The position numbers and the translations under genes are program-made. Below, in pieces: positions 2,021 through 60,035 of a stretch of DNA of 64,000 bases. Below the pieces are notes generated by a model. It did not search any database, was not told the origin of the DNA, and saw nothing but the letters and a program-made list of their open reading frames with translations. Every line of letters starts with the position of its first letter. The stretch's first letter is position 1. The stretch comes from Enterobacter sp. R4-368 (lineage in GTDB: Bacteria; Pseudomonadota; Gammaproteobacteria; Enterobacterales; Enterobacteriaceae). The DNA is taken from the NCBI RefSeq assembly GCF_000410515.1, contig NC_021500.1, positions 2,170,001 to 2,234,000 on the forward strand. The letters are read 5' to 3'.

Positions 2021-2702
2021 ACTGATAGACGTGCTGATAGTAGAAGATGAAAACACGCTTGCGCAGCTTAATGCGGAACTGGTCAGCAAACACCCGCGCC
2101 TGCGCCTGGTTGGTATTGCCTCGTCGCTTGCCGAAGCCCGCGAGTTATTGAGCAACATGCAGCCGCAGTTAGTGTTACTGGATAACTATTTGCCGGATGG
2201 CAAAGGCATTACCCTTATTAACGATCCGCAGATTATTCGCGCGAACTGCTCGGTGATTTTTATTACCGCCGCCAGCGATATGGACACCTGTAGCCAGGCG
2301 ATCCGCAATGGCGCGTTCGACTATATCCTCAAACCCGTGTCGTGGAAGCGGCTGAGCCAGTCGCTTGAGCGCTTTGTGCAATTCGCCGAGCAGCAACGCG
2401 TGTGGAAAATTGTCGACCAGCAGAACGTGGACTCACTTTACCAGTTACAGGCAAAAAATTTCCGCCAGGATAACGGCAGTAAAGGCATTGAAGAGAGTAC
2501 GCTGGCGCTGATTCAGAAACTGTTTGCCGACGAGATCGCGCGCTGTTTTTCCGTCGATGAAGTGGTGAGCGAAACGGGGTTGAGCAAAACCACCACCCGG
2601 CGCTATCTGGAACACTGCGTGGAAGCCGGGTTTCTGGCGGTGGAGATGCAGTACGGGAAAATTGGCCACCCGAGGCGCATGTACCGCCGGGTGGCTGCGT
2701 GA
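2010..2702 (+). CDS. CitB/DpiA/DcuR-family response regulator
   Basis: Partner of the upstream kinase, 230 aa. The N-terminal receiver domain shows the acidic pair in LIVEDE, phospho-acceptor Asp58 in LLDNYLPDGKG, the switch Thr/Ser in FITAASDMD and Lys in DYILKPVSW. The C-terminal part carries an HTH (SVDEVVSETGLSKTTTRRYL) and the family ending GKIGHPRRMYR. I chose the ATG at 2010, which overlaps the kinase stop; an upstream in-frame start at 1884 would only add residues read from inside the kinase gene. It probably regulates the divergent gene at 1-47 and its own operon through the repeated motif at 148-214. Confidence 0.88.
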   Translation: MQHELIDVLIVEDENTLAQLNAELVSKHPRLRLVGIASSLAEARELLSNMQPQLVLLDNYLPDGKGITLINDPQIIRANCSVIFITAASDMDTCSQAIRNGAFDYILKPVSWKRLSQSLERFVQFAEQQRVWKIVDQQNVDSLYQLQAKNFRQDNGSKGIEESTLALIQKLFADEIARCFSVDEVVSETGLSKTTTRRYLEHCVEAGFLAVEMQYGKIGHPRRMYRRVAA

Positions 2703-2706
2703 GATG

Positions 2707-2731
2707 GCCCCTCACCGTGCGGTTGAGGGGC
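2707..2731. terminator. Hairpin between convergent genes
   Basis: An 8-bp stem (GCCCCTCA / TGAGGGGC) with a 9-nt loop lies in the 35-bp gap between the convergent regulator and speC genes. There is no clear T-tract on either side, so it is a plausible but weak bidirectional terminator. Confidence 0.5.
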
Positions 2732-2737
2732 TAAAGT

Positions 2738-4873: not shown

Positions 4874-5272
4874 AAGCACGAATACCCGTTTCAGGGGAGT
4901 AAAAGACCCCGGACAAAGCAGTTGCTTCGCCCAACGAACGTGTCTGACTGGAACCAGCTCCGACCGCCAGACATCAGTAAAAGCAGACAGCTTCTGATCT
5001 TACTGTTGTCCTACAGTGAGCGTGCGTTAACCTCACCGCATGGTGAGTGAAGTATGGGGGAAAATGATACGGGTGCGCGAAGGCATGCAGGTGCAAAATG
5101 CGTGACAAACAGCAGTCATATGCGTCATCTGGCGGCTCCCGTAAGGCGGAATAAAATTCGCGCAATCATGTCACCTTTCCTAAAGAGGCGCAACCAGGCC
5201 GGACGTGGTCGCGCATAAAAATGCTATTCTACGCGGCATATTATTCAGTTATGTGAAACACAGGAGTGACTC
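4874..5272. promoter_or_regulatory. Divergent speC-yqgA intergenic region with a candidate extended -10
   Basis: This 399-bp gap carries the divergent promoters of speC and yqgA. The best element I can point to is an extended -10 (TGC then TATTCT, 5222-5230) about 43 bp before the yqgA GTG, with no convincing -35. No small gene is evident. Confidence 0.35.
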
Positions 5273-9688: not shown

Positions 9689-9835
9689 TTAATTAATGTA
9701 ACCCGCCGCACTGGCTGCACAAAAGTGCCCTGCAGCTCTCAATATTCTCCTGCCACTGGCCCATGTAAACATCGCTTCCAGGCCAGTCTCACTTCCGGGT
9801 TGATTTACAGTTGTAGCCGCTTGATGGCGAGAAAG
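9689..9835 (-). pseudogene. Frameshifted C-terminal tail of the Tle-like effector
   Basis: In the +1 frame relative to the effector, about 45 residues read RHQAATTVNQPGSETGLEAM and onward, ending AAGYIN before a stop at 9689. The composition is protein-like and fits the C-terminus expected of this family, whereas the effector frame here gives a short Ser/Lys tail. The frames can be joined near 9828-9835 by a single-base change. Confidence 0.5.
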
Positions 9836-30200: not shown

Positions 30201-30319
30201 ACCAGATAAAGACCTGAGCTCTCAGAGCCCAGGAGACTTAACAGTTCTTCCGCATCTCCGAATGCCTTACCTTTTCCATTGGCAGGTATCGGGAAGGTGA
30301 TTTTTGGTATTAAAGCCAT
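27269..30319 (-). CDS. Multidomain peptidoglycan hydrolase effector (M23-like + T4-lysozyme-like GH24)
   Basis: 1016 aa. The N-terminal part (about 1-420) is M23-like (WHGGIHITD at 46-54 and QVHIEC) with inserted SH3-like segments (AGDKVWTVSDRGW, KGDRVWVVSD). A second M23-like domain (about 690-815) has HAARD (His706, Asp710) and MLHFEYY (His805), but the usual catalytic first His of HxH is Met803. The C-terminal domain (about 865-1016) is a T4-type lysozyme: Glu877, Asp886 and Thr892 have exactly the spacing of T4 lysozyme Glu11-Asp20-Thr26, within ESFELKAYNDSEGFCTIG. It follows vgrG2 by 14 nt, so it is probably VgrG2-delivered and cuts the glycan chain of rival cells. GC content falls towards the 3' end. 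Strong Shine-Dalgarno (GGGAGGAAAG). Confidence 0.85.
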   Translation of the reverse strand: MALIPKITFPIPANGKGKAFGDAEELLSLLGSESSGLYLVGSQGMWHGGIHITDASAPWCALTGSNPSELNYVNKPYDGAQAVRCMADGEIVAYRVCEDYDFIAWRGDKLYFSTSFVLVKHYIQPGENASGGLTFHTLYMNLAPVAAYGQADINLRETAKGQSYYTTPEQVNKGTAKGSLPAGTQVELSDKLMTSAHPGHYRRQFCEVRVMNDTGSLSAGDKVWTVSDRGWLKPLSGKATQPSWWKKCSPAYHAGTGNEQSYKTSAVLKAYFSTEDVSAGADRSTLPKDFPVTVDPGITSFTRQTDNRIFSLVTLERDNGRLKKGDRVWVVSDNSNLIAKGTQSQGQGKYGEVVAPETPVAISAGDCIGHLGFYELPEENGKRSRYQVHIECLSPDNKLPTFLTNPDKTGEDDPAYLNYAEGAALFMPDASGKMMSTGRKSRAPGVLTRSKVPGVDADGKVLTDNTSAAYYQIRPEGGWMAASDVKKVAQFDLASLGFVTLDKAPESFDLIDGIHHPDNVVKGVLKQLYQAAQNETDSSRAMNQYNYNRLLKQIDSSNDGIYSEQEYLQAVHNPSYRDHLHRIIVRHPSEWYYGKDDTYWKRYLDTLNTDPSLAVWKAYTESFLEKMNWMKQVSGMVADPWHMHPVEFLFAISQNKNKEVIFPLKIKPKNDIEGIWKRYYWAASLSDSNASQAIFGRSRSNGTRKHAARDLYTGPSTEIVAVSNGLIRNISHYYYGTWQITVEHTTENGQHFFIRYGEVDPRSILVHAGQHVMQGTVLAKTGLMINPSTGQHPNIIPGQVVYMLHFEYYPGSGELPPPNNTPNPPFLRRDDLRDPIGILMEGYKNTFEEVHAENGQRISIKNLTLSNEGKAFIKGWESFELKAYNDSEGFCTIGYGHLIAREKCEDIILPGEFKNGITISRADELFDVRVSGYVAELKNTIDVDLFQHEFDALVSLLFNMGSMRKAPLLNSKLNQADYEGASAEFLDITNGGLSGLVTRRRSEQNLFLHNIYDSSH

Positions 30320-43858: not shown

Positions 43859-46800
43859 CTAAGGCTGACTGATCACGGTCGTAATATGATCGGCAAGCGC
43901 GCCCGCGTGCGGCATGGTCAACATAGTCATATGATTTCCTGGGCTCAGCATGGCGGTGAATTGTGTCGCGTATTCACGCCACACCGCCTCGCGCTGTTCC
44001 CGCTCTGCACCATTAGCCTCTTGTGCATTAATGCTATGCAACCTCCCCTGGTAACGCGCGCGGGGAACATAGGAGGTATTGAGGTTTGCGTACAACACAT
44101 GGAAAACACCAGCCAGCAACGAAAGTGGCGTGTTGCGGGTGTAAACCCCCGCCTCAATCAAAAGTTGATGCAAACAGATAAGCCGCTGCTGTGGCGCCAT
44201 TCCCAATAGCGCGTCCTCCGTAATGGGCAGCTCCCGGTTCAGCATCAAATTATAAATGCTGATTAATTTCATCACTGCCCCGAGGTGGCTGACCGGCGGT
44301 TTAGCCCCGGGAGAGCGGCTGTCAATGATAATCAGATCGGCAACCGTCTCCCCTTGCGCCTGTAATTGCAGCGCAATTTCAAAGGCTATCCAGCCGCCAA
44401 AGGAGTGCCCAATAAGGTGATATGGCCCGGAAGGCTGACGTTCACGCATTGCGCTGATGTAATCACGTGCCGTCTCTTCAATTGTCAGATGCGGCATGGT
44501 TTTCACATCGGTGAGCCCGCGTGCCTGCAGCGCATAAACAGGAAGTGTTGCAGGCAAAAGTCCCACCACGTCAAGAAAACTGAATGCGGATGCACCGGCA
44601 CCCGGGATGCAAAATAGTGGCGTTTCGCAATCGGCCCCCTCCTGCATAACAACCACCGGCTGGTAGGAAGATCGGGGGAGCAGGTCTGCCGACATTGTCT
44701 TCGCCAGTTGCGCCAGCAACGGCGGTTGCATAATCGATAAATGCGTCCCACCAATAACATGCAGCGACGAATCGCTGCTTACTGTGCCGTGCCAGCCGCG
44801 CCAGATGTCGTCGCTTTCCTCCAGATTTGCCGTGTAAAGGTTGATGGTGAGATCCGCAGGAATCGGCTGATACCGCAGCCCCAGCGGCCTGATGTACAAC
44901 ACCGTTTCCAGGCGTAACAGCAGATCCTCATAGCTAATATCCTTCGGCAACCAGTTATGTTCGCTGCAAAGATCAAAAACGGCTTGCATATCAAGGGGAC
45001 TTTGCAGCTGTGCCAGTATCGACCTTTCGCTCTCCGGCACATGCATGGATAAGAAATTGACGATCATTTCGTCACGTACTGCCGGCTCGCTGCTCGCGCT
45101 GACATCACGCTTCTGATGCGCAGCCGGATGATAGCTGTCAATCATGCCGATAAAGGCGATCTCTTCCCCGCTTCGTTGCAACTGCAGCGCAATTTCATAA
45201 CTGATAACACCGCCTAAAGACCAGCCCGCAAGGTGGTAAGGTCCATGCGCCTGTACGCGACGGATGGCTTCAATATGGCAGGCGGCCAGCGCTTCCAGCG
45301 ATGCCGGCGGATTCTCTGCGTTATGCAGACCAAGTGCCGAAAGTGCATACACGGGGCGATCGACCCGCAACATCGTAGCCAGAGGCGAATAGACCAGCGG
45401 ATCGCCGGAAGGCTCATGCACCAGAAAAAGCGGCGGCTGTGTACCTTCCCCCCGCAGCACAACAGGATTATCGGCAAAAGGTGATGCGAGTGATTTTTCC
45501 CTGTCCTGAATAAAGCCAGCAAGCTGCGCCAGGGATGGCCTGGCAAAGAGTGTCGCCAGTGAGATAGCCAGCCCAGTTTTTGCCATGCGGTTTAACAGCT
45601 GAACCGCCAGTAAAGAGTGACCACCGAGTTCAAAAAAGTTGTCATGCCGCCCGACCTGCGACAGCCCCAGCAGCTCACACCAGATAGCCGCAAGCATGTT
45701 TTCCACCTCACCAGCCGGGGGTTCATCCCCGCGGGTGACCAGCGCAGCGCGATCCGGTGCGGGCAGCGCCTGACGATCCAGCTTGCCGTTCGGCGTAAGC
45801 GGAAAGCTCTCCAGCGTGACATACGCGGCGGGCAGCATATATTCCGCCAGCGACTGCGCCAGCTGCTGACGCAGTCGTGCAGGCTCCGGCGTGTGGCCGG
45901 GTTCTGCCAGCAGATAGGCGACCAGCCGCTTATCACCCGGCAACTCTTCCCGCGCCATCACCACCGCGTCGCACACACCGTCGCATGCCGTCAGGCAGGC
46001 CTCGATTTCCCCCGGCTCGATGCGGAATCCGCGCAGTTTGACCTGGAAATCATTACGCCCGAGGAACTCAATATTGCCGTCCGGCAGCCAGCGACCGAGG
46101 TCGCCGGTTCTGTACATCCGCTGACCAGGCGTGAACGGGTCCGGCAGGAAACGCTCTGCCGTCAGTTCCGGGCGGTTGAGGTAACCCCGTGCCACGCCGT
46201 TGCCAGCGATATAAAGCTCGCCGCAGATCCCCAGCGGTACTGGCTGACCGTGATCATCGAGGAAATAGATCTGCGTGTTGTCGAGCGGTTTGCCAATGCC
46301 CGGCGTCGCCAGCGTTTTATCAACCACGCACATACTGGCATTGACGGTACACTCCGTCGGCCCGTAGGCGTTAACAAAACGGATCTGCTCAATGTTTTGC
46401 ATGGCCGACCAGGCTGATAACGGGATCGCATCGCCACCGATAATGACAGTACAGGGATAGCCCTCATACGCTTTCTGTAACCCTGCGGCAATCAGCCCCT
46501 GCAACTGAAGGGGCGTGCAATCGATCACATCAACGCGTTGACGGCGCAAGAATGCTAACAGCGCGCCACCCTCTTTACGAACCGCCTCCGGAACGATGAC
46601 CATCGTATGCCCCAACAGTAAGTGCACCCAGCTCTGCACCGAGGCATCAAACACAATGCTGGCATTCATACTCACGCGCGAAGGATGTTGTATACCCAGC
46701 CTCGCCTGTATGGCGCTTTGCATGCTGACAACATTGCGGTGCTCAACCATCACCCCCTTGGGTTTCCCGGTCGAGCCGGAGGTGTAAATCACATACGCCA

Positions 46801-49800
46801 GATGCTCCGCCGTCAGCCCCTGCGGCTCCGGGTTGTGCTCCGCCGCACTGTCCTCCGGCGCCGCATCCGTCAGCACCACCGGCAGCGCGGTATTCAGCGT
46901 CTGCACCAGCGCCCGCTGCGTCACCAGCGCCACCGGGGACGCATCCGCCAGCATATAGCCCAGCCGCCCCGCCGGGTAGGCCGGGTCCAGCGGCACATAT
47001 GCGCCCCCCGCTTTCAGAATGCCCAGTATCGCCACCAGCACATCCGCGCTGCGGGGCAGACACACTGCCACCCGGTCATCCGGGCGCACACCCAGCGCCA
47101 TCAGCCGGTGCGCCAGCCGGTTGGCCCGCCGGTTCAGCGCAGCGTAGCTGAGCGTGATATCGTCGCAGACCACCGCCACCGCCTCCGGCGTGCGCACCAC
47201 CTGCGCCTCAAACAGCCGGTGAACCAGCCCCTCCGCCGGCACCGCCGCCCGCGTGGCGTTAAACGCCACCAGCACCTGGTTGCGCTCCCCTTCGGGCAGC
47301 ACGGGCAGGCTCAGCACCGGGCGCTGCGGCTCATGCGCCAGCGCCGCGCTCAGCGCCGCCAGCGTGGTCAGCAGGTAGCCGAGCTGGCGCTGCGGGTCGA
47401 TGCCGGCCACCGTCTGCGCCGTCAGGATGAACCCCTCCCCGGTGTCATCCACCGAGAACGCCAGCGGGTAGCTGGTCCGCTCTTCCGCTTCCAGCAGCCG
47501 GATACCCTCGCGCACAAGATTGCTGCGCGCCGGGCTGTGGCGGTAATTCAGCAGCGTGCTGAACAGCGGCAGCGGCTGCGGCACCCCGCTGCAGCGCAGC
47601 GCCAGCGCCAGCGGCGCCTGTTCATGCTCACACAGCGCCGCCAGCGCATCCCGCGTGGACAGCACCGCTTCCTGCACTCCCTGACCGGCCAGCGACACCC
47701 GCAGCGGCAGCGTGTTGATGAACATGCCGGGACCGGATTCGCCGCTGTCCCCGGCCTGCAGACGGCCCATCAGCACGGTGCCGAACACCACGTCATCCCG
47801 TCCGCACAGCTGCGCCAGCAGGCGCGCCAGCGCCGTGTGGAACAGCACGCCGGGGCTGACGCCCAGCCGCCGCGCCTGCGCGCGGATATGCCCCGCCAGC
47901 GCGGTATCCAGCGTCTGCCGCGCTTCCCCGCACACCCCGCCGCTTTCCCGCGTGTCGGCAATGTCATACGGTGCGGTCGGGGTGTCAGTATCCGCCAGCC
48001 GGGCGCGGAACCACGCCTCATGCTCACTCTGCGGCACCCGCAGCGTGCGGGCGATAAAGTTGCGGTAGGGCACCGGCACCGCCAGCGCGGCGGCGTTCCC
48101 GTCCAGAATCTGCGTGATTTCATCGCAGACCAGCGCCATCGAGATGTGGTCGCAGACCAGATGATGGAAGTTAAGCGCCAGCAGCCACCGCTGCTGTGCC
48201 GGGTCGTACGCCGTCCGGGCGCTGAACAGCGGGGCGCGGCTGATATCCATGCGCTGACTGTGCGGGCTGGCCTGTGCCCGCAGCTGTCCGGCGATATCCT
48301 GGCCGGTCTGCGGCACAAACGCTGTCACCGGCAGAACGGCCTGACGCCAGACCACCTGCACCGGACGGGACACGCCCTGCCAGCACACCGCGCTGCGCAG
48401 GATGTCGTGGCGGTCTATCACCTGCTGCAGCGCTGCCAGAAACGCCTCCAGCAGCACGCGGGAGTCAAAAGCCAGCAGGCTGCTGAGCAGGTAGGCATCC
48501 CCCTGCGCCTGCAGCAGATGGTGGAACAGAATGCCCTCCTGCAGCGGTGACAGCGGGTAGATGTCCTGCACGTTCGCCGCGCCGCCGTCCACCGTCTCCA
48601 CCACCGCATCAGTCTCCGCCTGCGTCAGGCTGACCAGCGGCAGCATACCGGGCGTGATGGCCCGGCAGTGCGCCGGGATACGTGGCGGCGGAACCGGCGC
48701 TTCTGCTTCCCGGAGGGTGATGCGCTGTGCCATCTCAGCCAGCACCGGGGCGGAGAACGCCCCGCGGATATCCAGCGCCATCCCCTGGCCGCGCAGCCGC
48801 TCCAGCAGGCTCACCACCATCAGCGAATGGCCGCCGAGCTCGAAAAAGTTGTCCTGCCGCCCGACCTGCGACAGCCCCAGCAGTTCGCACCAGATGGCGG
48901 CCAGCGCGGTTTCCACCTCACCGGCCGGAGGTTCATCCCCGCGGGTGACCACCGCCGTGCGATCCGGGGCGGGCAGCGCCTGCCTGTCCAGCTTGCCAGT
49001 GGGCGTGAGCGGGAAGCTCTCCAGCGTGACAAACGCGGCGGGCAGCATGTGCTCTGCCAGCGACTGCGCCAGCTGCTGACGCAGCCGGGCTGGCTCCGGC
49101 GTGTGGCCGGGTTCTGCCAGCAGGTAGGCAACCAGCCGCTTATCGCCTGGCGTGTCTTCCCGCGCCATCACCACCGCGTCGCGCACGCCGTCGCATGCCG
49201 TCAGGCAGGCGCTGATTTCCCCCGGCTCGATGCGGAACCCGCGCAGTTTGACCTGGAAATCGTTGCGTCCGAGAAACTCAATGTTGCCGTCCGGCAGCCA
49301 GCGCCCGAGATCGCCGGTTCTGTACATCCGCTGGCCGGGGGTGAAGGGATCCGGCAGAAAACGTTCTGCCGTCAGCTCAGGCCGGTTCAGGTAACCACGC
49401 GCCACGCTGTCACCGGCGATATAGATCTCACCGCAGATCCCCAGCGGTACCGGCTGGCCGTACTCATCCAGCAGATAAATCTGCGTGTTGGCGATAGGCT
49501 TGCCGATGGGAATTGAGCGATTGCGGTTCACTGCGCCGGGGATGGCATAGGTGGTGATAAACGTCGTGGCTTCGGTCGGACCATAACAGCTTATCAACCG
49601 CTTTGGCTGCTGTTCCGACTGCTGCAGGCGGCTGATTTTCACCGGATCAAGCACGTCCCCGCCGGTCAGCAGATAACGCAACTGCCCGAACACCGGTTTC
49701 AGCACCTCGAGGTATTCGTTAAACAGCCCGACGGTAATCCACAATATGCTGACGTTTTCCCGCAGCAGCACGTCGCGCAACTGGTGTGGATCCTGCAGTG

Positions 49801-51976
49801 TCGACGGCGTGATAATACACAGCCGCGCACCGTTCAGCAGCGCAGACCAGATCTCCCAGACCGAGGCGTCAAAGGCAATATTGGCGCTGTGTGAAAGGCA
49901 GTCCTGTGCGCTGATCCCGGCGGCCTGGTTATTGAGGATAAACTGGCTGACGTTGCGGTGCTCGACCATCACCCCTTTGGGTTTCCCGGTCGAGCCGGAG
50001 GTGTAAATCACATACGCCAGGTGCTCCGGTGTCAGCCCCAACGCCTGCGGATCCGGGTTGTATTCTGCCGCACTGTCCTGCTCCGCTGCCGCATCCGTCA
50101 ACACCACTGGCAGCGCGGTGTCCAGCGTCTGCGCCAGCGCATGCTGCGCCACCAGCGCCACCGGTGCCGCATCCGCCAGCATATAGTTCAGCCGCCCCAC
50201 CGGATACGTTGGATCCATCGGCACATACGCACCGCCCGCTTTCAGAATGCCCAGCATCGCCACTATTGCATCGACGCTGCGCGCCAGGCACACCGCCACC
50301 CGATCATCCGGGCGCACCCCCTGCGCCATCAGCCGGTGCGCCAGCCGGTTGGCCCGGCGGTTCAGCGCATCGTAACTGAGCGAGATATCGTCGCAGACCA
50401 CCGCCACCGCATCCGGGGTGCGCTGCACCTGAGCTTCAAACAGGCTGTGCAGCAGATGCTCGTGCGGTAAAGCTGCCTGAGTAGTGTTAAAACTGACGAT
50501 CAGTTGCTGATACTCGGCTGATGAGAGCATGGGCAGCGCATGCGGAGAGCGGTTCTCATCGTTAGCCATCTCCGTCAGCACCTTAACAAAGTAGCCAACG
50601 AGACGTTCTGCCGTTGCGTGATCGAACAAGTCAGAGGCGTATTCCAGATCGCCTGTCAGCGCACCGGCTGTTTCTTCAAGTGCAAGCGTCAGATCGAAAT
50701 GGGCAGAATGGTGCTGTTGCTCGATTAACGAGAGACTCACACCTGCCAGCGCTGGCTGCTCAGCAGGCGTATTATTGAGCGCTAACATTACCTGAAAGAG
50801 CGGGCTGTGGCTCAAACTGCGCGCAGGTTGAATGGCTTCGACAACCTTATCAAAGGGCAGTGTTTGATGTTCATAAGCCGCAAGCGTTTGTTGGCGAACA
50901 TGCGCCAGTAAATCGCTGACTGTCGGGCAACCGGCGAGATTAACGCGCAAAGCGAGCGTGTTAACAAAAAAGCCAATTAATCCCTCCAGCTGTTGGTGAG
51001 AACGGTTGGCTACCGGGCTGCCAATCACCAGGTCATGCTGGCCACTTAGCCGGCTCAGCACAATCGACCAACCGGCGAGCAGCGTCATAAAAAGCGTGGC
51101 GCCGTGACGCTGGCTCAATGCCTTAAGCGAAGCCACCAGAGGCTCACTAAGGCGCAGTGGAACGTTATTCCCCGTAAAGCTTTGTACATTTGGTCGTGGG
51201 CGATCGGTGGGAAGTGCCAGTAACGCTGGCGCACCTTGTAGATACTGTTTCCAGAAATCGAGTTCTTTCGCCAGGCCCCCTTCCTGAAAATGGCGCTGCT
51301 GCCAGCTTGCGTAGTCAGCATACTGAACGGGCAAGGCGTGCAGAGGATAAGCATGCTGGCCGCAGGCCGCCTGATAGAGATGGCTCAGTTCGCGAACTAA
51401 TACGCCAATCGACCAGCCATCAGAAATAATGTGGTGCTGGGTGAGCAGCAGAATGTGTTCTTCATCGCCGAGTTGTAACAACGCCCCGCGAATAAGGCGG
51501 TCATGGCTCAAATCAAACGGGGTTTTCCGATCCGCTTCATGCAGCGCGGCAATCCGCTGGCAACGCGCCGTTTCACTCAGATTACGCAAGTCGTGGCGCG
51601 TTAAAGCAAAATCCGTATCAGGGGGATCAATATGCTGCCAGGGCTTGCCATCCACCATCACAAAACGTGTGCGTAAACTCTCTTGCCGGGCAATAAGCTG
51701 ATTAAAGGCATCATCAAGCGCCTGATGATTAAGCAACCCTTTGAGATGTAAGGTTGCCGGAATGTGGTATGCCAGGCTGGCGGCAGGATCCAGCTGGCTT
51801 AAAAACCATAAACGCTGCTGGGCGAAGGAGAGCGGTAGCGGTGCCCGCCGATCGGCCAGTGGAATTACGCTTGCCTGGTGAGGCTGAGCCGCTTTACGCG
51901 CCCGCAACAGCGCTTTCATTTTTTGTTCCAGAACGGCACGTTTTAGCGCGTCTACATCCCTTGTATCTTTCGTCAT
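43859..51976 (-). CDS. NRPS, modules 3-4 with tandem thioesterases (C-A-T-E/C-A-T-TE-TE)
   Basis: 2705 aa. Short docking-like N-terminus; C domain with QHHIISDGWS (LCL type); A3 with YTSGSTGKPKG; T3 (GGHSLMV, about residue 1045); a condensation domain with FHHLLQAQGD at its start and FHHLVCDHIS as core, the pattern of dual epimerisation/condensation domains; A4; T4 (GGHSLLA, about 2121); then two thioesterases, with GWSLGG (Ser about 2253) and GHSFGG (Ser about 2525). By-eye specificity codes: A3 D-A-W-W-L-G-C-T-F-K (hydrophobic, Val-like); A4 D-A-Q-D-I-G-A-V-N-K (polar, perhaps Gln or basic; uncertain). Its ATG overlaps the stop of the upstream NRPS by 4 nt, so the two are co-translated. No MbtH-like or exporter gene is seen nearby. 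Confidence 0.92.
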   Translation of the reverse strand: MTKDTRDVDALKRAVLEQKMKALLRARKAAQPHQASVIPLADRRAPLPLSFAQQRLWFLSQLDPAASLAYHIPATLHLKGLLNHQALDDAFNQLIARQESLRTRFVMVDGKPWQHIDPPDTDFALTRHDLRNLSETARCQRIAALHEADRKTPFDLSHDRLIRGALLQLGDEEHILLLTQHHIISDGWSIGVLVRELSHLYQAACGQHAYPLHALPVQYADYASWQQRHFQEGGLAKELDFWKQYLQGAPALLALPTDRPRPNVQSFTGNNVPLRLSEPLVASLKALSQRHGATLFMTLLAGWSIVLSRLSGQHDLVIGSPVANRSHQQLEGLIGFFVNTLALRVNLAGCPTVSDLLAHVRQQTLAAYEHQTLPFDKVVEAIQPARSLSHSPLFQVMLALNNTPAEQPALAGVSLSLIEQQHHSAHFDLTLALEETAGALTGDLEYASDLFDHATAERLVGYFVKVLTEMANDENRSPHALPMLSSAEYQQLIVSFNTTQAALPHEHLLHSLFEAQVQRTPDAVAVVCDDISLSYDALNRRANRLAHRLMAQGVRPDDRVAVCLARSVDAIVAMLGILKAGGAYVPMDPTYPVGRLNYMLADAAPVALVAQHALAQTLDTALPVVLTDAAAEQDSAAEYNPDPQALGLTPEHLAYVIYTSGSTGKPKGVMVEHRNVSQFILNNQAAGISAQDCLSHSANIAFDASVWEIWSALLNGARLCIITPSTLQDPHQLRDVLLRENVSILWITVGLFNEYLEVLKPVFGQLRYLLTGGDVLDPVKISRLQQSEQQPKRLISCYGPTEATTFITTYAIPGAVNRNRSIPIGKPIANTQIYLLDEYGQPVPLGICGEIYIAGDSVARGYLNRPELTAERFLPDPFTPGQRMYRTGDLGRWLPDGNIEFLGRNDFQVKLRGFRIEPGEISACLTACDGVRDAVVMAREDTPGDKRLVAYLLAEPGHTPEPARLRQQLAQSLAEHMLPAAFVTLESFPLTPTGKLDRQALPAPDRTAVVTRGDEPPAGEVETALAAIWCELLGLSQVGRQDNFFELGGHSLMVVSLLERLRGQGMALDIRGAFSAPVLAEMAQRITLREAEAPVPPPRIPAHCRAITPGMLPLVSLTQAETDAVVETVDGGAANVQDIYPLSPLQEGILFHHLLQAQGDAYLLSSLLAFDSRVLLEAFLAALQQVIDRHDILRSAVCWQGVSRPVQVVWRQAVLPVTAFVPQTGQDIAGQLRAQASPHSQRMDISRAPLFSARTAYDPAQQRWLLALNFHHLVCDHISMALVCDEITQILDGNAAALAVPVPYRNFIARTLRVPQSEHEAWFRARLADTDTPTAPYDIADTRESGGVCGEARQTLDTALAGHIRAQARRLGVSPGVLFHTALARLLAQLCGRDDVVFGTVLMGRLQAGDSGESGPGMFINTLPLRVSLAGQGVQEAVLSTRDALAALCEHEQAPLALALRCSGVPQPLPLFSTLLNYRHSPARSNLVREGIRLLEAEERTSYPLAFSVDDTGEGFILTAQTVAGIDPQRQLGYLLTTLAALSAALAHEPQRPVLSLPVLPEGERNQVLVAFNATRAAVPAEGLVHRLFEAQVVRTPEAVAVVCDDITLSYAALNRRANRLAHRLMALGVRPDDRVAVCLPRSADVLVAILGILKAGGAYVPLDPAYPAGRLGYMLADASPVALVTQRALVQTLNTALPVVLTDAAPEDSAAEHNPEPQGLTAEHLAYVIYTSGSTGKPKGVMVEHRNVVSMQSAIQARLGIQHPSRVSMNASIVFDASVQSWVHLLLGHTMVIVPEAVRKEGGALLAFLRRQRVDVIDCTPLQLQGLIAAGLQKAYEGYPCTVIIGGDAIPLSAWSAMQNIEQIRFVNAYGPTECTVNASMCVVDKTLATPGIGKPLDNTQIYFLDDHGQPVPLGICGELYIAGNGVARGYLNRPELTAERFLPDPFTPGQRMYRTGDLGRWLPDGNIEFLGRNDFQVKLRGFRIEPGEIEACLTACDGVCDAVVMAREELPGDKRLVAYLLAEPGHTPEPARLRQQLAQSLAEYMLPAAYVTLESFPLTPNGKLDRQALPAPDRAALVTRGDEPPAGEVENMLAAIWCELLGLSQVGRHDNFFELGGHSLLAVQLLNRMAKTGLAISLATLFARPSLAQLAGFIQDREKSLASPFADNPVVLRGEGTQPPLFLVHEPSGDPLVYSPLATMLRVDRPVYALSALGLHNAENPPASLEALAACHIEAIRRVQAHGPYHLAGWSLGGVISYEIALQLQRSGEEIAFIGMIDSYHPAAHQKRDVSASSEPAVRDEMIVNFLSMHVPESERSILAQLQSPLDMQAVFDLCSEHNWLPKDISYEDLLLRLETVLYIRPLGLRYQPIPADLTINLYTANLEESDDIWRGWHGTVSSDSSLHVIGGTHLSIMQPPLLAQLAKTMSADLLPRSSYQPVVVMQEGADCETPLFCIPGAGASAFSFLDVVGLLPATLPVYALQARGLTDVKTMPHLTIEETARDYISAMRERQPSGPYHLIGHSFGGWIAFEIALQLQAQGETVADLIIIDSRSPGAKPPVSHLGAVMKLISIYNLMLNRELPITEDALLGMAPQQRLICLHQLLIEAGVYTRNTPLSLLAGVFHVLYANLNTSYVPRARYQGRLHSINAQEANGAEREQREAVWREYATQFTAMLSPGNHMTMLTMPHAGALADHITTVISQP
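46735..49405. repeat. 2.7-kb near-identical direct repeat, copy in the downstream NRPS
   Basis: This stretch matches 53328-55998 at a constant offset of 6593 bp with only scattered substitutions. It spans from the middle of one adenylation domain through T, dual E/C and into the first half of the next A domain. The substrate-binding core of each A domain lies outside the repeat and has diverged. Confidence 0.9.
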
Positions 51977-54900
51977 TCGTTGTGTCCTTCACTTATCATC
52001 TTCGCTAACGCTTCCGGTAACATCTCGTCAAGTTCGTGTTGTATGGCGGCTATTTCATCCCCTGCGATGGCCTCTAGTTGTGCAGAAAAAATAGCTTCGG
52101 CTTGATCCTGTAAGGTGGGTGACAGAAAGAGCGTGGAAATGGATACCTCAATGAAAAACTCACTCTGGATCCGACTGATCAGCTGTACCGCCATCAGCGA
52201 ATGACCGCCGAGTTCGAAAAAGTTGTCGTGCCGCCCGACCTGCGACAGCCCCAGCAGCTCACACCAGATAGCCGCCAGCGTGTTTTCCACTTCGCCAACG
52301 GGTGCGTCATCCCCGCGGGTGACCGCTGCTGTGCGATCCGGTGCGGGCAGCGCCTGACGATCCAGCTTGCCGTTCGGCGTGAGCGGAAAACTCTCCAGCG
52401 TGACAAACGCAGCGGGCAGCATATATTCCGCCAGCGACTGCGCCAGCTGCTGACGCAGTCGTGCAGGCTCCGGCGTGTGGCCGGGTTCTGCCAGCAGATA
52501 GGCGACCAGCCGCTTATCACCCGGCAACTCTTCCCGCGCCATCACCACCGCGTCGCGCACACCGTCGCATGCCATCAGGCAGGCCTCGATTTCCCCCGGC
52601 TCGATGCGGAATCCACGCAGTTTGACCTGGAAATCATTGCGCCCGAGGAACTCAATATTGCCGTCCGGCAGCCAGCGCCCGAGGTCGCCGGTTCTGTACA
52701 TCCGCTGACCGGGCGTGAACGGGTCCGGCAGGAAACGCTCTGCCGTCAGTTCCGGGCGGTTGAGGTAACCCCGTGCCACGCTGTTGCCAGCGATATAAAG
52801 CTCACCGCAGATCCCCAGCGGTACTGGCTGTCCGTGCTTGTCCAGAATATAGATCTGTGTGTTGGCGATAGGCTTGCCAATGGGAATTGACCGGTTGCGG
52901 CTTACCGCTGAATCAATGGTATAGGTGGTGACAAAGGTGGTGGTTTCTGTCGGACCGTAGCCGTTTATCAGCCGCTCCGGCTGCTGCGCCCACTGCTGCA
53001 GGCGGCTGATTTTCACCGGATCAAGCACATCCCCGCCAGTCATCAAATAACGCAGTTGCCCGAATACGGGTTTCAGTACCTCAAGGTATTCGTTAAACAG
53101 CCCGACGGTGAGCCACATCACGCTGACCTTTTCCCGCAGCAGCACGTCGCGCAGCTGGTGCGGTTCCTGTAGTGTCGACGGTGTGATAATGCACAATCGC
53201 GCGCCATTCAGCAGCGCAGACCAGATTTCCCAGACCGAGGCGTCAAAGGCAATATTGGCGCAGTGCGCAATACAGTCCTGCGCGCTGATATCGGTGGCCT
53301 GATTATTGAGGATAAACTGGCTGACGTTGCGGTGCTCGATCATCACCCCCTTGGGTTTCCCGGTCGAGCCGGAGGTGTAAATCACATACGCCAGATGCTC
53401 CGCCGTCAGCCCCTGCGGCTCCGGGTTGTGTTCCGCCACACCGTCCTCCGGCTCTGCATCCGTCAGCACCACCGGCAGCGCGGTATTCAGCGTCTGCACC
53501 AGCGCCCGCTGCGTCACCAGCGCCACCGGGGACGCATCCGCCAGCATATAGCCCAGCCGCCCCGCCGGGTAGGCCGGGTCCAGCGGCACATACGCGCCCC
53601 CCGCTTTCAGAATGCCCAGTATCGCCACCAGCACATCCGCGCTGCGGGGCAGACACACCGCCACCCGGTCGTCCGGGCGCACACCCAGCGCCATCAGCCG
53701 GTGCGCCAGCCGGTTGGCCCGGCGGTTCAGCGCAGCGTAGCTGAGCGTGATATCGTCGCAGACCACCGCCACCGCCTCCGGTGTGCGCACCACCTGCGCC
53801 TCAAACAGCCGGTGAACCAGCCCCTCCGCCGGGACCGCCGCCCGCGTGGCGTTAAACGCCACCAGCACCTGGTTGCGCTCCCCTTCGGGCAGCACGGGCA
53901 GGCTCAGCACCGGGCGCTGCGGCTCATGCGCCAGCGCCGCACTCAGCGCCGCCAGCGTGGTCAGCAGGTAGCCGAGCTGGCGCTGCGGGTCGATGCCGGC
54001 CACCGTCTGCGCCGTCAGGATGAACCCCTCCCCGGTGTCATCCACCGAGAACGCCAGCGGGTAGCTGGTCCGCTCTTCCGCTTCCAGCAGCCGGATGCCT
54101 TCACGCACAAGATTGCTGCGCGCCGGGCTGTGGCGGTAATTCAGCAGCGTGCTGAACAGCGGCAGCGGCTGCGGCACCCCGCTGCAGCGCAGCGCCAGCG
54201 CCAGCGGCGCCTGTTCATGCTCACACAGCGCCGCCAGCGCATCCCGCGTGGTCAGCACCGCTTCCTGCACGCCCTGGCCGGCCAGCGACACCCGCAGCGG
54301 CAGCGTGTTGATGAACATGCCGGGACCGGATTCGCCGCTGTCCCCGGCCTGCAGACGGCCCATCAGCACGGTGCCGAACACCACGTCATCCCGGCCGCAC
54401 AGCTGCGCCAGCAGGCGCGCCAGCGCCGTGTGGAACAGCACGCCGGGGCTGACGCCCAGCCGCCGCGCCTGCGCGCGGATATGCCCCGCCAGCGCGGTAT
54501 CCAGCGTCTGCCGCGCTTCCCCGCACACCCCGCCGCTTTCCCGCGTGTCGGCAATGTCATACGGTGCGGTCGGGGTGTCAGTATCCGCCAGCCGGGCGCG
54601 GAACCACGCCTCATGCTCACTCTGCGGCACCCGCAGCGTGCGGGCGATAAAGTTGCGGTAGGGCACCGGCACCGCCAGCGCGGCGGCGTTCCCGTCCAGA
54701 ATCTGCGTGATTTCATCGCAGACCAGCGCCATCGAGATGTGGTCGCAGACCAGATGATGGAAGTTAAGCGCCAGCAGCCACCGCTGCTGTGCCGGGTCGT
54801 ACGCCGTCCGGGCGCTGAACAGCGGGGCGCGGCTGATATCCATGCGCTGACTGTGCGGGCTGGCCTGTGCCCGCAGCTGTCCGGCGATATCCTGGCCGGT

Positions 54901-57900
54901 CTGCGGCACAAACGCCGTCACCGGCAGAACGGCCTGACGCCAGACCACCTGCACCGGACGGGACACGCCCTGCCAGCACACCGCGCTGCGCAGGATGTCG
55001 TGGCGGTCTATCACCTGCTGCAGCGCTGCCAGAAACGCCTCCAGCAGCACGCGGGAGTCAAAAGCCAGCAGGCTGCTGAGCAGGTAGGCATCCCCCTGCG
55101 CCTGCAGCAGATGGTGGAACAGAATGCCCTCCTGCAGCGGTGACAGCGGGTAGATGTCCTGCACGTTCGCCGCGCCGCCGTCCACCGTCTCCACCACCGC
55201 ATCAGTCTCCGCCTGCGTCAGGCTGACCAGCGGCAGCATACCGGGCGTGATGGCCCGGCAGTGCGCCGGGATACGTGGCGGCGGAACCGGCGCTTCTGCT
55301 TCCCGGAGGGTGATGCGCTGTGCCATCTCAGCCAGCACCGGGGCGGAGAACGCCCCGCGGATATCCAGCGCCATCCCCTGGCCGCGCAGCCGCTCCAGCA
55401 GGCTCACCACCATCAGCGAATGGCCGCCGAGCTCGAAAAAGTTGTCCTGCCGCCCGACCTGCGACAGCCCCAGCAGTTCGCACCAGATGGCGGCCAGCGC
55501 GGTTTCCACTTCACCGGCCGGGGGCTCATCCCCGCGGGTGACCACCGCCGTGCGATCCGGGGCGGGCAGCGCCTGCCTGTCCAGCTTGCCGTTCGGGGTA
55601 AGCGGGAAGCTCTCCAGCGTGACAAACGCGGCGGGCAGCATGTGCTCCGCCAGCGACTGCGCCAGCTGCTGACGCAGCCGGGCTGGCTCCGGCGTGTGGC
55701 CGGGTTCTGCCAGCAGGTAGGCGACCAGCCGCTTATCGCCCGGCGTGTCTTCCCGCACCATCACCACCGCGTCGCGCACGCCGTCGCATTCTGTCAGGCA
55801 GGCGCTGATTTCCCCCGGTTCAATGCGGAACCCGCGCAGTTTGACCTGGAAATCGTTGCGCCCGAGAAACTCAATATTGCCGTCCGGCAGCCAGCGCCCG
55901 AGATCGCCGGTTCTGTACATCCGCTGGCCGGGGGTGAAGGGATCCGGCAGAAAACGTTCTGCCGTCAGCTCCGGCCGGTTGAGGTAACCACGCGCCACGC
56001 CGTTACCTGCAATATAGAGTTCGCCCGTCACGCCAAACGGCACCAGTTGACGGTGACTGTCCAGAATGTAGATCCGCAAATCGGAGAGCGGGCCGCCAAT
56101 CAAACTGGCACCATGCGAGGTAATATCTGAAGGCGCTATTTCATACCAGGTGGCATGCACGGTGATTTCCGTGATGCCATACATATTGATAAGCCGCGTA
56201 TTACGGTTTAAGGCGTTGTTAATCCACGGCACCAGAGAACGCATTTCAAGCGCTTCGCCGCCAAAGATAATGCAACGCAGGGTATGTGGAGTTGAGTCCT
56301 GGGCAGCAATTAACTGGCGGAATGCGCTGGGGGTTTGATTGAGTACCGTAACCTGTTCACGGCATAGCAGTGCATAAAGCGTCTGGGGTGAGCGAGCGCA
56401 TGCGGTTGATACCACAATCAACCGCCCGCCTGAGCATAACGCGCCGAATAACTCCCAAACGGAAAAATCAAAAGAGAAAGAGTGGCATAGCGACCAGGTA
56501 TCTTTACTACTAAAGCTAAAAACAGGCTGGCAGACAGTTAAAAGGCGGGTGATATTGCGGTGTTCAACCATCACGCCTTTGGGCTGACCTGTGGAACCGG
56601 AAGTATAAATAACGTAGGCCAGATGGTGCGCCGCCAGGCCGAGAGATAATGGCACAGGATTGCTCTCATCATCTTCGTCAGCAACGGCTGGTAACGGCGC
56701 ATCCATTAATACGGCAGGAGTAGCGCTATTCAGCGTCTGCGCAAGAGCAGAATGGGTGATCAGTGCGGCGGGGGCGGAATCTTCCAGCATGTAATTCAGC
56801 CGTTCGCCCGGATAGACCGGATCCAAAGGAACATAGGCTCCGCCCGCCTTGAGGATACCGAGGATGCCGATCACCATGTCGAGGCCACGCTCCAGACAAA
56901 TAGCCACGCGGTCATTTGGATGAACACCCAGTCTGATGAGCTGATGGGCCAGCCTGTTTGCCCTGCGGTTCAGAGCGTCATAGGTTAATGAGCTCCCCTC
57001 GAAAACGGCAGCGATAGCCTGTGGCGAGTGACGGACTTGTGCTTCAAACATTTCGTGGACTAATAGGTTAGAAGCGCCACTTTCTATAGCATGAGCAGGC
57101 TGCAGCAGTTGCTGGCGCTCATGTGGCGATAAAACCGGTAGGTGAGACACTGGCGTATCAACATTCTGCAACGCGCCTTCCAGTAATACAGCAAGGCGAG
57201 ATTGCATAACCTGAATATCGGCAGGTGTGAAATAGTCGAGGGAATAATTAAACTCAACGCAGACCGATTGGCTCTGTTTATTATTGCTGGTGATGGCGTA
57301 CTGATTAATGGTTATCGCTAAAGGATATTGCGCCCGGTGATGAGGTTTGATGGTTTGTATTATCGCCCCTTCCAGATGAATGTTAACGTCGTAAGGTTCA
57401 TAGGATAACGACATATCAAATACATTCGCCCTGTCGGTATGTTGCTGTTTTTTTATTCTCCGGTTAATTTCCGTAATCGGCAGCCGCTGGTGTTTATAGC
57501 AAATACGTAATTCATCGGCTGCTTTTTGCATTACATCAGAAAAGGAATCCTTATCCGTTAATCTAATGCGAACAGGGATAACAGAGGCATACATTCCCAC
57601 CGCCGCTTTTTGTCGGGCATTTTTTCGATTATGGAGTGGGATACCAAAAACAACATCATCAATGTTTTTTACTCTTTTAAAATAACAGGCAAAAAGGGCA
57701 TACATGAAATGCAATACGGACACCCCATATAAAGAAGCCGCCTGTTCAATGCGCTGAAAAAGGCTTTCCTCAAGCATCCAGCTTACAGGCTCAGGCAGAT
57801 ATGATGCCGGAGTCCGCGCCGTCACCAAAGGCTGGAATAATTGCGGCGGCAATGCCGTATATCGCTCAAGCCAAAAACCCTGGTCTTTGATGCACTGCTT

Positions 57901-58515
57901 CGCACCCAGATAAGCCGCGTCACTGGCCACAAAATCGGCATAGGATAACGATGCGCTTTCAGATAAATGCTCCCCGCGAATTAGACGACTATAATTTTCG
58001 CTCAACTCTGCATTAAGCAGGCTCAGGCTCGTTCCATCGGCAATAATATGGTGACAGCACAGTTGCCAATACCAGCGGTTATTGCCGGCAAAGATTAATG
58101 CGCTGCGCCATAACCTTTCAGCCAAATTAAATGGCTGCGTAAAGTTTAAATTCACATACTGTTCAGCTTCATTTATTGGATTATCCGTTGTCGAAAAATC
58201 CTTAAATTCCATTAATGGCAAAGCGGAAGAGTCAAAATATTGTGCTGGCGACGTACCGGCAACCATACGCAGACGAAATGCATCATGCCGCTTAATGACG
58301 GAATCAAACGCTTTAACTATGATATCGGGAACGATATTGCCATCAATGATCATCACGCTCCCTATATTGTAATTTGTTAATTCAGGATTCAGCGTCTGAG
58401 CGAACCAAATCGCTTGCTGATCTGAACTCAATGGAAATGGCGACGCTGGAAACGCTGTACACTCTTCCGCCACCCATGCACTGTCTAAAAATCTATTATT
58501 GGGAGATATGTCCAT
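51973..58515 (-). CDS. NRPS, modules 1-2 with a starter-type condensation domain (C-A-T-E/C-A-T)
   Basis: About 2180 aa, first enzyme of the assembly line. C1 (about 10-450; HHIIADGTS) opens with FPLSSDQQAIWFAQTLNPEL and resembles starter C domains that attach an acyl group. A1 has the by-eye code D-F-W-N-I-G-M-V-H-K, the published threonine code. T1 (GGHSLMV, about 1030) is followed by a dual E/C domain (FHHLLQAQGD and FHHLVCDHIS), predicting D-(allo)-Thr. A2 code D-A-W-W-M-G-G-T-F-K is Val-like. T2 is at about 2105. The C-terminal helix (AIQHELDEMLPEALAKM) may dock to the next enzyme. I chose ATG 58515 (MDISPNNR); its Shine-Dalgarno is weak and an in-frame start at 58569 is possible. Confidence 0.92.
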   Translation of the reverse strand: MDISPNNRFLDSAWVAEECTAFPASPFPLSSDQQAIWFAQTLNPELTNYNIGSVMIIDGNIVPDIIVKAFDSVIKRHDAFRLRMVAGTSPAQYFDSSALPLMEFKDFSTTDNPINEAEQYVNLNFTQPFNLAERLWRSALIFAGNNRWYWQLCCHHIIADGTSLSLLNAELSENYSRLIRGEHLSESASLSYADFVASDAAYLGAKQCIKDQGFWLERYTALPPQLFQPLVTARTPASYLPEPVSWMLEESLFQRIEQAASLYGVSVLHFMYALFACYFKRVKNIDDVVFGIPLHNRKNARQKAAVGMYASVIPVRIRLTDKDSFSDVMQKAADELRICYKHQRLPITEINRRIKKQQHTDRANVFDMSLSYEPYDVNIHLEGAIIQTIKPHHRAQYPLAITINQYAITSNNKQSQSVCVEFNYSLDYFTPADIQVMQSRLAVLLEGALQNVDTPVSHLPVLSPHERQQLLQPAHAIESGASNLLVHEMFEAQVRHSPQAIAAVFEGSSLTYDALNRRANRLAHQLIRLGVHPNDRVAICLERGLDMVIGILGILKAGGAYVPLDPVYPGERLNYMLEDSAPAALITHSALAQTLNSATPAVLMDAPLPAVADEDDESNPVPLSLGLAAHHLAYVIYTSGSTGQPKGVMVEHRNITRLLTVCQPVFSFSSKDTWSLCHSFSFDFSVWELFGALCSGGRLIVVSTACARSPQTLYALLCREQVTVLNQTPSAFRQLIAAQDSTPHTLRCIIFGGEALEMRSLVPWINNALNRNTRLINMYGITEITVHATWYEIAPSDITSHGASLIGGPLSDLRIYILDSHRQLVPFGVTGELYIAGNGVARGYLNRPELTAERFLPDPFTPGQRMYRTGDLGRWLPDGNIEFLGRNDFQVKLRGFRIEPGEISACLTECDGVRDAVVMVREDTPGDKRLVAYLLAEPGHTPEPARLRQQLAQSLAEHMLPAAFVTLESFPLTPNGKLDRQALPAPDRTAVVTRGDEPPAGEVETALAAIWCELLGLSQVGRQDNFFELGGHSLMVVSLLERLRGQGMALDIRGAFSAPVLAEMAQRITLREAEAPVPPPRIPAHCRAITPGMLPLVSLTQAETDAVVETVDGGAANVQDIYPLSPLQEGILFHHLLQAQGDAYLLSSLLAFDSRVLLEAFLAALQQVIDRHDILRSAVCWQGVSRPVQVVWRQAVLPVTAFVPQTGQDIAGQLRAQASPHSQRMDISRAPLFSARTAYDPAQQRWLLALNFHHLVCDHISMALVCDEITQILDGNAAALAVPVPYRNFIARTLRVPQSEHEAWFRARLADTDTPTAPYDIADTRESGGVCGEARQTLDTALAGHIRAQARRLGVSPGVLFHTALARLLAQLCGRDDVVFGTVLMGRLQAGDSGESGPGMFINTLPLRVSLAGQGVQEAVLTTRDALAALCEHEQAPLALALRCSGVPQPLPLFSTLLNYRHSPARSNLVREGIRLLEAEERTSYPLAFSVDDTGEGFILTAQTVAGIDPQRQLGYLLTTLAALSAALAHEPQRPVLSLPVLPEGERNQVLVAFNATRAAVPAEGLVHRLFEAQVVRTPEAVAVVCDDITLSYAALNRRANRLAHRLMALGVRPDDRVAVCLPRSADVLVAILGILKAGGAYVPLDPAYPAGRLGYMLADASPVALVTQRALVQTLNTALPVVLTDAEPEDGVAEHNPEPQGLTAEHLAYVIYTSGSTGKPKGVMIEHRNVSQFILNNQATDISAQDCIAHCANIAFDASVWEIWSALLNGARLCIITPSTLQEPHQLRDVLLREKVSVMWLTVGLFNEYLEVLKPVFGQLRYLMTGGDVLDPVKISRLQQWAQQPERLINGYGPTETTTFVTTYTIDSAVSRNRSIPIGKPIANTQIYILDKHGQPVPLGICGELYIAGNSVARGYLNRPELTAERFLPDPFTPGQRMYRTGDLGRWLPDGNIEFLGRNDFQVKLRGFRIEPGEIEACLMACDGVRDAVVMAREELPGDKRLVAYLLAEPGHTPEPARLRQQLAQSLAEYMLPAAFVTLESFPLTPNGKLDRQALPAPDRTAAVTRGDDAPVGEVENTLAAIWCELLGLSQVGRHDNFFELGGHSLMAVQLISRIQSEFFIEVSISTLFLSPTLQDQAEAIFSAQLEAIAGDEIAAIQHELDEMLPEALAKMISEGHNE
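53328..55998. repeat. 2.7-kb near-identical direct repeat, copy in the upstream NRPS
   Basis: Partner of 46735-49405. A further, slightly less perfect repeat (about 52240-52840 against 45655-46260, offset about 6584 bp) covers the conserved C-terminal half of the A domains. The repeats are hot spots for recombination and for assembly error. Confidence 0.9.
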
Positions 58516-59321
58516 ATATTCCAACCTAATTAATGAAAGCCAAATCGTCGTAATTAATTGACAGCACACTTATTTCCGCAAAACAGGGCACCATCAAATA
58601 ATATTCCTGATGAATGTTTTATCCTTAAATGAACGGCTAATTATCCACTGTCCCCCTGGATGCTTTGTCGTCAACGCCGTGAACCGTATGAGGTAAAACT
58701 GAATGTGTCTTAACGACAATCCTATCAATTAGTGCAACCGTCCACTCTTAACACCAGATATAGCCATTTTAAAAAAGTACGTAATAATACCGGGGGAAAT
58801 CATTACGTAAGATTGACATCATATAAAATACACCATAAATCAGTCCCATCCGCTCACTCATGGCGTTATTCCCTTGAGATTAAACGATCTGTAGCGAGTA
58901 ATAACCCTTGCAGTTAATAATAAATACCTTTTGCGTCTTTATGGCAAGAAAATATATCACCTTGACAGCACCTCATTGATATATACAACACCATACGCTT
59001 GATAATAAAGATGTTATTATTTTTAATTTGACAAAAAACCGTTTCACATTTGCGTTTATCACTGCAACGAAAAATTCCGAGAAGAGTTTATTTTATTATT
59101 CCGCACAATTATTCATGTAATGGATAGATAAACCACAATATAAAAGAAAGCCTTGATGTTGATGAATGGTAATAGTGCGATTTCCTCAAGATGATTCTCC
59201 ACCATCGCATTCCTGTTAAGAAAGAAATAGGTGACGACGACACCACCTGCGGTACACTGATTGCGTTTGCTGACAACACGTTTACCGATGTACTTACTCG
59301 TTAACTTAATGATAGATAAAT
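58516..59321. promoter_or_regulatory. Long AT-rich divergent region between NRPS and PPTase genes
   Basis: About 800 bp with no convincing gene; a 61-codon open frame at 58732-58917 has no Shine-Dalgarno or protein-like composition. Two TTGACA hexamers (58962-58967 and 59028-59033) face the PPTase but lack well-spaced -10 partners. The length and AT content suggest a silenced or regulated divergent promoter region. No Fur-box-like sequence is evident to me. Confidence 0.4.
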
Positions 59322-60035
59322 ATGTTTACCCCACAACTACGTCATTCCTCTTCTGCTTTCGTGATGCAGTCAGAAACTGGGTGCATCACGCAATTCCCTG
59401 CAATAGCTTACTGTAAGGTCACATTCGACGCGGCCTCTTACCGGGATGCCCTTTTTAGCGAATATGGCATCCCTTTTCCTTCGGTGCTTGATAAAGCGGT
59501 AGTAAAACGGCGCGCGGAGTACCTTGCGGCTCGCTATGCCGCCGGACAATTATTACAAAACGCCGGCTGTGATGGCCATGTGGGTACGTCTTCTGGCCGG
59601 GAGCCCGTCTGGCCTGCGGGCTGGTGCGGCAGCCTTTCTCATACCAGTGGTCACGCTATTGCGATTATTGCGCCGCGTAACGCAGGATTAACGCCAGGCA
59701 TTGATATTGAAATGTTCGACGCAAAGACCATGAGGGAGACGGCGGAGATGTTCACCAGCCCTGAGGAGCGGCGATTACTTGCCGCCTGTGGCTTAGCGTA
59801 TGAAACGGCGTTGCTGATACTATTTTCCGCCAAAGAGAGTCTGTTTAAGGCGCTCTATCCTGAGGTGAAATGTTTTTTCGGTTTTGAAGCGGCGCGAATC
59901 TGTCGTATCGATACTTCGGTACATAGCATTACCCTTGAGCTAACGCAGCCGCTGACGCCTGAGCGCAGACAAGGATGCCAGTTTACTGGTCTGTATCTTA
60001 TCGCGGAAAATCATGTGATGACGCTGATCGCGTAA
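59322..60035 (+). CDS. 4'-phosphopantetheinyl transferase (EntD/Sfp type)
   Basis: 237 aa. It transfers phosphopantetheine from CoA to the Ser of carrier domains. Hallmarks: KRRAEYLAARYAA, GSLSHTSGHAIAI, the metal-binding GIDIEMFD, and FSAKESLFKALYP. It is divergent from the NRPS genes, which need such an enzyme for their four carrier domains. It is EntD-like, but no enterobactin genes are in the window, so it is probably dedicated to this pathway. The ATG at 59322 has a poor Shine-Dalgarno. Confidence 0.9.
   Translation: MFTPQLRHSSSAFVMQSETGCITQFPAIAYCKVTFDAASYRDALFSEYGIPFPSVLDKAVVKRRAEYLAARYAAGQLLQNAGCDGHVGTSSGREPVWPAGWCGSLSHTSGHAIAIIAPRNAGLTPGIDIEMFDAKTMRETAEMFTSPEERRLLAACGLAYETALLILFSAKESLFKALYPEVKCFFGFEAARICRIDTSVHSITLELTQPLTPERRQGCQFTGLYLIAENHVMTLIA

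Follow-up and report, generated by a model that had tools for sequence, protein, structure and literature searches.

The 64,000-nucleotide stretch of the genome of the plant-associated bacterium Enterobacter sp. R4-368 analysed here (NC_021500.1, positions 2,170,001 to 2,234,000; hereafter the window) carries a two-gene non-ribosomal peptide synthetase (NRPS) on its minus strand, at 43859-58515, which we confirm as a real and apparently intact four-module system. Gene A (51973..58515, minus strand) encodes 2180 aa from an ATG at 58515; its longest open reading frame (ORF) reaches a GTG start at 58569 (51973-58569, minus strand, 2198 aa). Gene B (43859..51976, minus strand, 2705 aa) starts over the stop of gene A, the two overlapping by ATGA. 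Pfam stretches in the two products comprise four Condensation (C), four AMP-binding (adenylation, A), four PP-binding (carrier, T) and two thioesterase (TE) domains, in the order C-A-T-C-A-T for gene A and C-A-T-C-A-T-TE-TE for gene B. Catalytic motifs are kept throughout: HHxxxD in 4/4 C, GGHS in 4/4 T and GxSxG in 2/2 TE domains. The four modules of the original prediction, made from the letters of the same DNA, are thereby borne out. Only five Condensation matches exist in the whole genome, four of them in genes A and B; the fifth is in a 1306-aa frame at C2:4364610, adjoining the sole MbtH match of the genome, and this frame is probably the enterobactin EntF gene.

Compared with its relatives, the locus probably encodes a lipopeptide NRPS of the standard kind, a module-number variant of a predicted two-module acyl-D-Thr-Gln synthetase that sister species carry at the same place. 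Four features go beyond what had been noticed originally: the tandem TE, a divergently oriented phosphopantetheinyl transferase (PPTase) gene, a direct repeat shared between genes A and B, and the sister-species version with two modules.

Predicted substrates, stereochemistry and release

Refined by subtype, gene A reads starter C-A-T-E/C-A-T and gene B LCL-A-T-E/C-A-T-TE-TE, where E/C denotes dual epimerisation/condensation domains. The first domain of gene A (57103..58437, minus strand) falls with starter condensation (Cs) domains when judged by its best solved matches. The top three are the RzmA-Cs chains 7c1k, 7c1h and 7c1p, deposited with a study of lipoinitiation by RzmA-Cs (PMC7804268); the best match is distant, at 112.6 bits. 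In the alignment, R148, Y138 and M143 of RzmA stand against Leu, Cys and Ala. Shorter side chains at 148 and the Y138A substitution shifted RzmA-Cs to longer acyl chains, M143 alone having a minor effect (PMC7804268), so that Leu and Cys at the R148 and Y138 sites would disfavour acetyl without fixing an acyl length. The likeness to the rhizomide synthetase RzmA covers this domain only.

Codes of the A domains were extracted by motif anchoring, at residue positions that we take to be those of the Stachelhaus scheme. A1 (55567..57048, minus strand) gives DFWNIGMVHK, a code placed in the Thr section of a published survey and also accepting modified Thr (PMC12283262). A2 (52348..53820, minus strand) with DAWWMGGTFK and A3 (48974..50440, minus strand) with DAWWLGCTFK resemble DAWWLGGTFK, named in the survey among Val-set codes, and A4 (45764..47227, minus strand) with DAQDIGAVNK resembles DAQDLGVVDK, which serves both Glu and Gln (PMC12283262). 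The same extraction returns codes exactly as printed there, namely DFWNIGMVHK (Thr), DAQDLGVVDK in one Kosakonia genome (G005) and DAWWLGGTFK at a Xenorhabdus locus (L003). Modules 1 to 4 are thus predicted to load Thr, Val, Val/Ile and Gln/Glu.

Two of the internal C domains, C2 (53830..55167, minus strand) and the near-identical C4 (47237..48574, minus strand), carry both published marks of dual E/C domains, HH[I/L]xxxxGD near the N-terminus and an HHxxxDH core (PMC10531924, PMC1894796), in the form of HHLLQAQGD and HHLVCDH. C3 (50501..51838, minus strand), with HHIISDG and no E/C mark, is of the LCL type. Gene B ends in two C-terminal TE domains, each with its GxSxG: TE1 (44693..45433, minus strand; GWSLG) and TE2 (43877..44620, minus strand; GHSFG).

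The assembly that these parts suggest would run as follows. Carrier domains would be primed by the adjacent PPTase, and the starter C would attach to Thr a fatty acyl chain that, going by the RzmA rule, exceeds acetyl in length. In module 2, the E/C domain would turn Thr into D-Thr and join it to Val; the LCL domain of gene B would add the second such residue, Val/Ile, which module 4, through its own E/C domain, would epimerise and join to Gln (or Glu). Release by the tandem TE would then yield acyl-D-Thr-L-Val-D-Val/Ile-L-Gln, our best prediction of the product, as a Thr-O lactone or a linear acid. The order originally proposed (acyl, D-Thr, a Val-like residue, a D-Val-like residue and a polar one) is supported by motifs and codes when held against published definitions, and the polar fourth residue can be narrowed to Gln or Glu by DAQDIGAVNK. 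We infer substrates, stereochemistry, acyl chain, release mode and biological role from sequence; the product would be a small, probably surfactant-like lipopeptide from Kosakonia, for which the surfactant or antimicrobial role suggested originally, like closure to a lactone, is a guess.

Several points weigh against this assignment. A literature search of six codes matched only DAWWLGGTF and returned nothing for DAWWMGGTFK, DAWWLGCTFK or DAQDIGAVNK, and the A2-A4 substrates are called by similarity, since their codes come close to printed ones but do not equal them. Epimerisation activity is lacking in some E/C domains (PMC10531924), and the best solved matches of C2, McyB and PvdL, leave its subtype undecided. 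Promoter-like sites in 58400-59400 are not above chance (three found versus 4.1 expected), and the six neighbouring genes scanned include no exporter.

Release can be read in two ways, as tandem TEs occur both with cyclic arthrofactin and with linear syringafactin. That the product leaves as a linear, syringafactin-like lipotetrapeptide acid rather than a lactone has, in our judgement, close to an even chance. The syringafactin system makes a linear product despite its two TEs (PMC3039948), and a ring closed through Thr1 would be small, with four residues. Thr at position 1, however, supplies the hydroxyl, and arthrofactin cyclisation requires ArfC-Te1, the first of two TEs (PMC3039948).

Starter C, dual E/C and tandem C-terminal TE are shared with the Pseudomonas lipopeptide synthetases for arthrofactin, viscosin, syringafactin and entolysin (PMC3039948). 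The present synthetase differs from that type in having only four modules, an Enterobacteriaceae host, a divergent PPTase gene and Thr at position 1, besides the lack of an exporter in the six neighbouring genes scanned. Serratia stephensiolide-type lipodepsipeptides also begin with acyl-Thr and close a Thr-O lactone, but have five residues and are Ser-rich. An NCBIfam match to SolG (solanimycin) was rejected as a sign of product kinship: it lies below the cut-off (1622.6 and 1623.4 against 2200 bits), in two stretches per protein. The earlier statement that no known product could be matched stands as far as the open-licence literature on Kosakonia NRPS and lipopeptides and on lipotetrapeptides goes (including the portions consulted of PMC7744662 and PMC10269543), in which nothing was recognised as this cluster; nor was a Kosakonia lipopeptide of this kind seen reported in the open-licence papers searched on the topic.

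Two-module orthologs and the direct repeat

The comparison set comprised 15 Kosakonia genomes, that of the window included, whose placement in this genus follows from close orthologs in K. quasisacchari and K. pseudosacchari. Close orthologs of the starter C (at least 87%) are found in four of them: the window's own, G010, K. pseudosacchari (G007) and K. quasisacchari (G008). G005 has an ortholog at 64% and the remaining 10 genomes weak C-domain matches only. G010, K. pseudosacchari and K. quasisacchari each carry a single frame (2706, 2706 and 2696 codons, stop to stop) with the layout starter C-A(Thr)-T-E/C-A(Gln/Glu-like)-T-TE-TE, at the same locus, with a haemagglutinin-like gene and the PPTase on one side and an ECs1377-family gene on the other. 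These frames show 84-85% protein identity to gene A and 70-72% to gene B, tracking gene A on the 5′ side of the alignment and gene B on the 3′ side; unlike the window, they have neither the two Val-like modules nor the A/B gene border. In G005, Thr and Gln codes are followed by a 2695-base N run and then T-TE-TE (L027), and the NRPS is away from the ECs1377 gene, on a different contig. A 900-residue stretch of that locus without NRPS match, considered as a polyketide synthase third module, is actually the 2695 N, and the module was not used.

Genes A and B share a direct repeat of 2692 bases, copy 1 at 53327..56018 and copy 2 at 46734..49425, 6593 bases apart; the coordinates were computed from ORF positions 2552-5243, the same in both genes. 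Spanning the end of A1, T1, the E/C and the start of the next A, the copies are 98.3% identical in the same codon register, with 46 differences in all and 11 amino-acid differences in codons 851-1747. Over codons 861-1740 they differ by 1.5% (third position 3.8%), whereas the other nine pairs are 8.0-10.6% apart (third position 14.8-18.5%), which points to a recent duplication or conversion. Since the repeats are in register and 6593 bases apart, a single exchange between them would excise A2-T2-C3-A3-T3 together with one E/C, and the frame that remained would be open and laid out as in the relatives. The four- and two-module forms may thus be linked by homologous recombination across the T1-E/C segment.

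Its direction is not polarised, because three flanking genes group the genomes in conflicting ways. It is quite possible, although we lean against it, that in the sacchari-like group four modules came first and the sister species then dropped two of them through recombination between the repeats, comparable to nodularin and microcystin. A 2.7-kb in-register repeat lends itself easily to deletion, which would leave roughly the frame length of the relatives; the LCL-A(Val) start of gene B is matched in Xenorhabdus by LCL-A(Val)-T-TE-TE, with 59% identity; and in the haemagglutinin-like gene the window strain is the outlier, at 10.3-10.8% from the two-module genomes, which differ from one another by 6.9-8.3%, so that a single loss in the common ancestor of those three could suffice. 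The ECs1377 gene, however, groups the genomes differently, with G010 and K. pseudosacchari 2.1% apart and K. quasisacchari 6.5-7.6% from all others. Thr also stands next to Gln in G005, the repeat copies are far closer to each other than the other pairs, and neither G007 nor G010 has a C-domain match that could be a leftover LCL. The A2-A3 core distance (13.7%) is of no help, given the 9.3-24.6% spread of Gln-module cores between species. Alternatively, the lineage of the window may have gained two modules, a reading that agrees with Thr and Gln being neighbours in G005 and with the recent date of the repeat.

We may also speculate that the locus is metastable, RecA recombination reducing the four-module line to a working acyl-Thr-Gln synthetase of two modules within a population while conversion keeps the repeats alike. 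We consider this unlikely; if true, one and the same strain might produce both a lipotetrapeptide and a lipodipeptide.

Still less probable is that either the relatives' two-module genes or the four-module form of the window is an assembly artefact of the near-identical repeat. The 98.3% identity and the draft status of the G007 and G008 assemblies would favour it. Against it, the two-module frames lie inside contigs of 4.9 Mb (G010), 657 kb (G007) and 293 kb (G008), no leftover LCL-like C match occurs in G007 or G010, and the window copies differ at 46 sites and have unique sequence between them. In G008, a separate NRPS is present on C84.

Module-number variation remains our preferred reading of the locus. 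Microcystin and nodularin also present a two-module difference between related lines, credited to deletion or recombination, although their products are unrelated to ours and the shorter form is there taken as derived (PMC8097286); for the syringafactin synthetase, a three-module deletion has been proposed (PMC3039948). Module loss is therefore known elsewhere, and what is new here is this synthetase together with what appears to be a clean natural pair of two- and four-module forms. With both forms at one locus, flanking genes 2-12% apart and the joins falling inside the A and T-E/C segments, the pair would offer a natural blueprint for cutting and joining NRPS in frame; its main value is as a natural example of assembly lines changing length.

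The A core of the Gln module shows two alleles about 24% apart, one in G010 and K. pseudosacchari and the other in K. quasisacchari and window A4, with flanks at about 8-11%. This pattern looks like A-subdomain exchange.

Gene neighbourhood and wider distribution

The Sfp/EntD-type PPTase is encoded divergently at 59322..60035 (plus strand) and adjoins the NRPS in all four Kosakonia genomes with a close ortholog, and in G005 as well. An AT-rich intergenic region common to both (58516..59321; 806 bases, 36% GC) is alignable in the three two-module relatives. Beyond the PPTase lies a filamentous-haemagglutinin-like gene. Downstream of gene B come an ECs1377-family gene with a winged-helix match and then type VI secretion system (T6SS) genes, including a sheath gene further on. 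The ECs1377-family gene could encode a regulator but was not counted as part of the system, being present in 15/15 genomes of the genus, most of them without this NRPS.

At C31:5638-7156 of G012 (L076), the PPTase (68%) and the ECs1377 gene (92%) are 178 bases apart, and the other eight neighbour proteins queried found no match in the 18 kb examined; the site would be empty of any NRPS and its PPTase an orphan. In G003, G013 and G014, a PPTase at 59-61% lies close to NRPS frames of another kind, which are larger and located elsewhere.

A siderophore-like metabolite is highly improbable: NRPS genes often make such compounds and the PPTase gives a sub-threshold score against the EntD model (102 bits, the cut-off being 169), but no aryl-acid, hydroxamate or receptor genes occur among the 18 window proteins scanned, the A-domain codes do not make up a chelating set of Orn, Ser or Asp type, and four of the five genomic C matches are those of this locus while the fifth sits by MbtH. 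The scan of these 18 proteins agrees with the original prediction as to siderophore acid genes and receptor, and showed none of the acid or hydroxylase genes of catechol/hydroxamate siderophore NRPS. The lack of a Fur box holds as well, with 0 matches at <=3 mismatches, which is a weak test since the chance expectation is also 0.

Beyond the genus, 394 Enterobacterales genomes were surveyed (the window's own included), with 2-4 candidates scored per genome. The starter C was found at 1e-60 in 6, TE-TE at 1e-60 in 5, LCL-A3 at 1e-200 in 4 and the E/C at 1e-80 in 8. All four parts recur in G140, G191 and G300, where identity is 42-61% and the longest frame reaches 7601 codons. On a short contig of Xenorhabdus thuongxuanensis (L003), we observed LCL-A(DAWWLGGTFK)-T-TE-TE, a 568-codon frame and, after it, a module with a C domain that resembles the starter C at 43%; the locus is possibly a distant sister of gene B.

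Base composition changes sharply along the synthetase. In 600-base bins, third-position GC reaches 0.82-0.90 in the E/C segments (six sequences) against 0.36-0.43 over the starter C (the five having one), a contrast seen in the Kosakonia orthologs measured as well as in the window. At class level (350 genomes), the E/C passed 1e-80 in two, the window's own and one other at <=40% identity. Among plasmids, 111 records match the E/C segment, all at <60%; the best listed, at 49-52%, come mostly from proteobacteria that we presume to be GC-rich. Because three Enterobacterales genomes reach 56-61%, the matches lend no support to a recent high-GC donor; the composition may stem from a foreign source or from GC-biased conversion of one module by another.

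Two side observations concern the T6SS region. A 1016-aa protein with peptidase M23 and phage-lysozyme domains (27269-30319) is a possible cell-wall-degrading T6SS effector, and 9789-11666 gives a match to a Tle1-like phospholipase effector.

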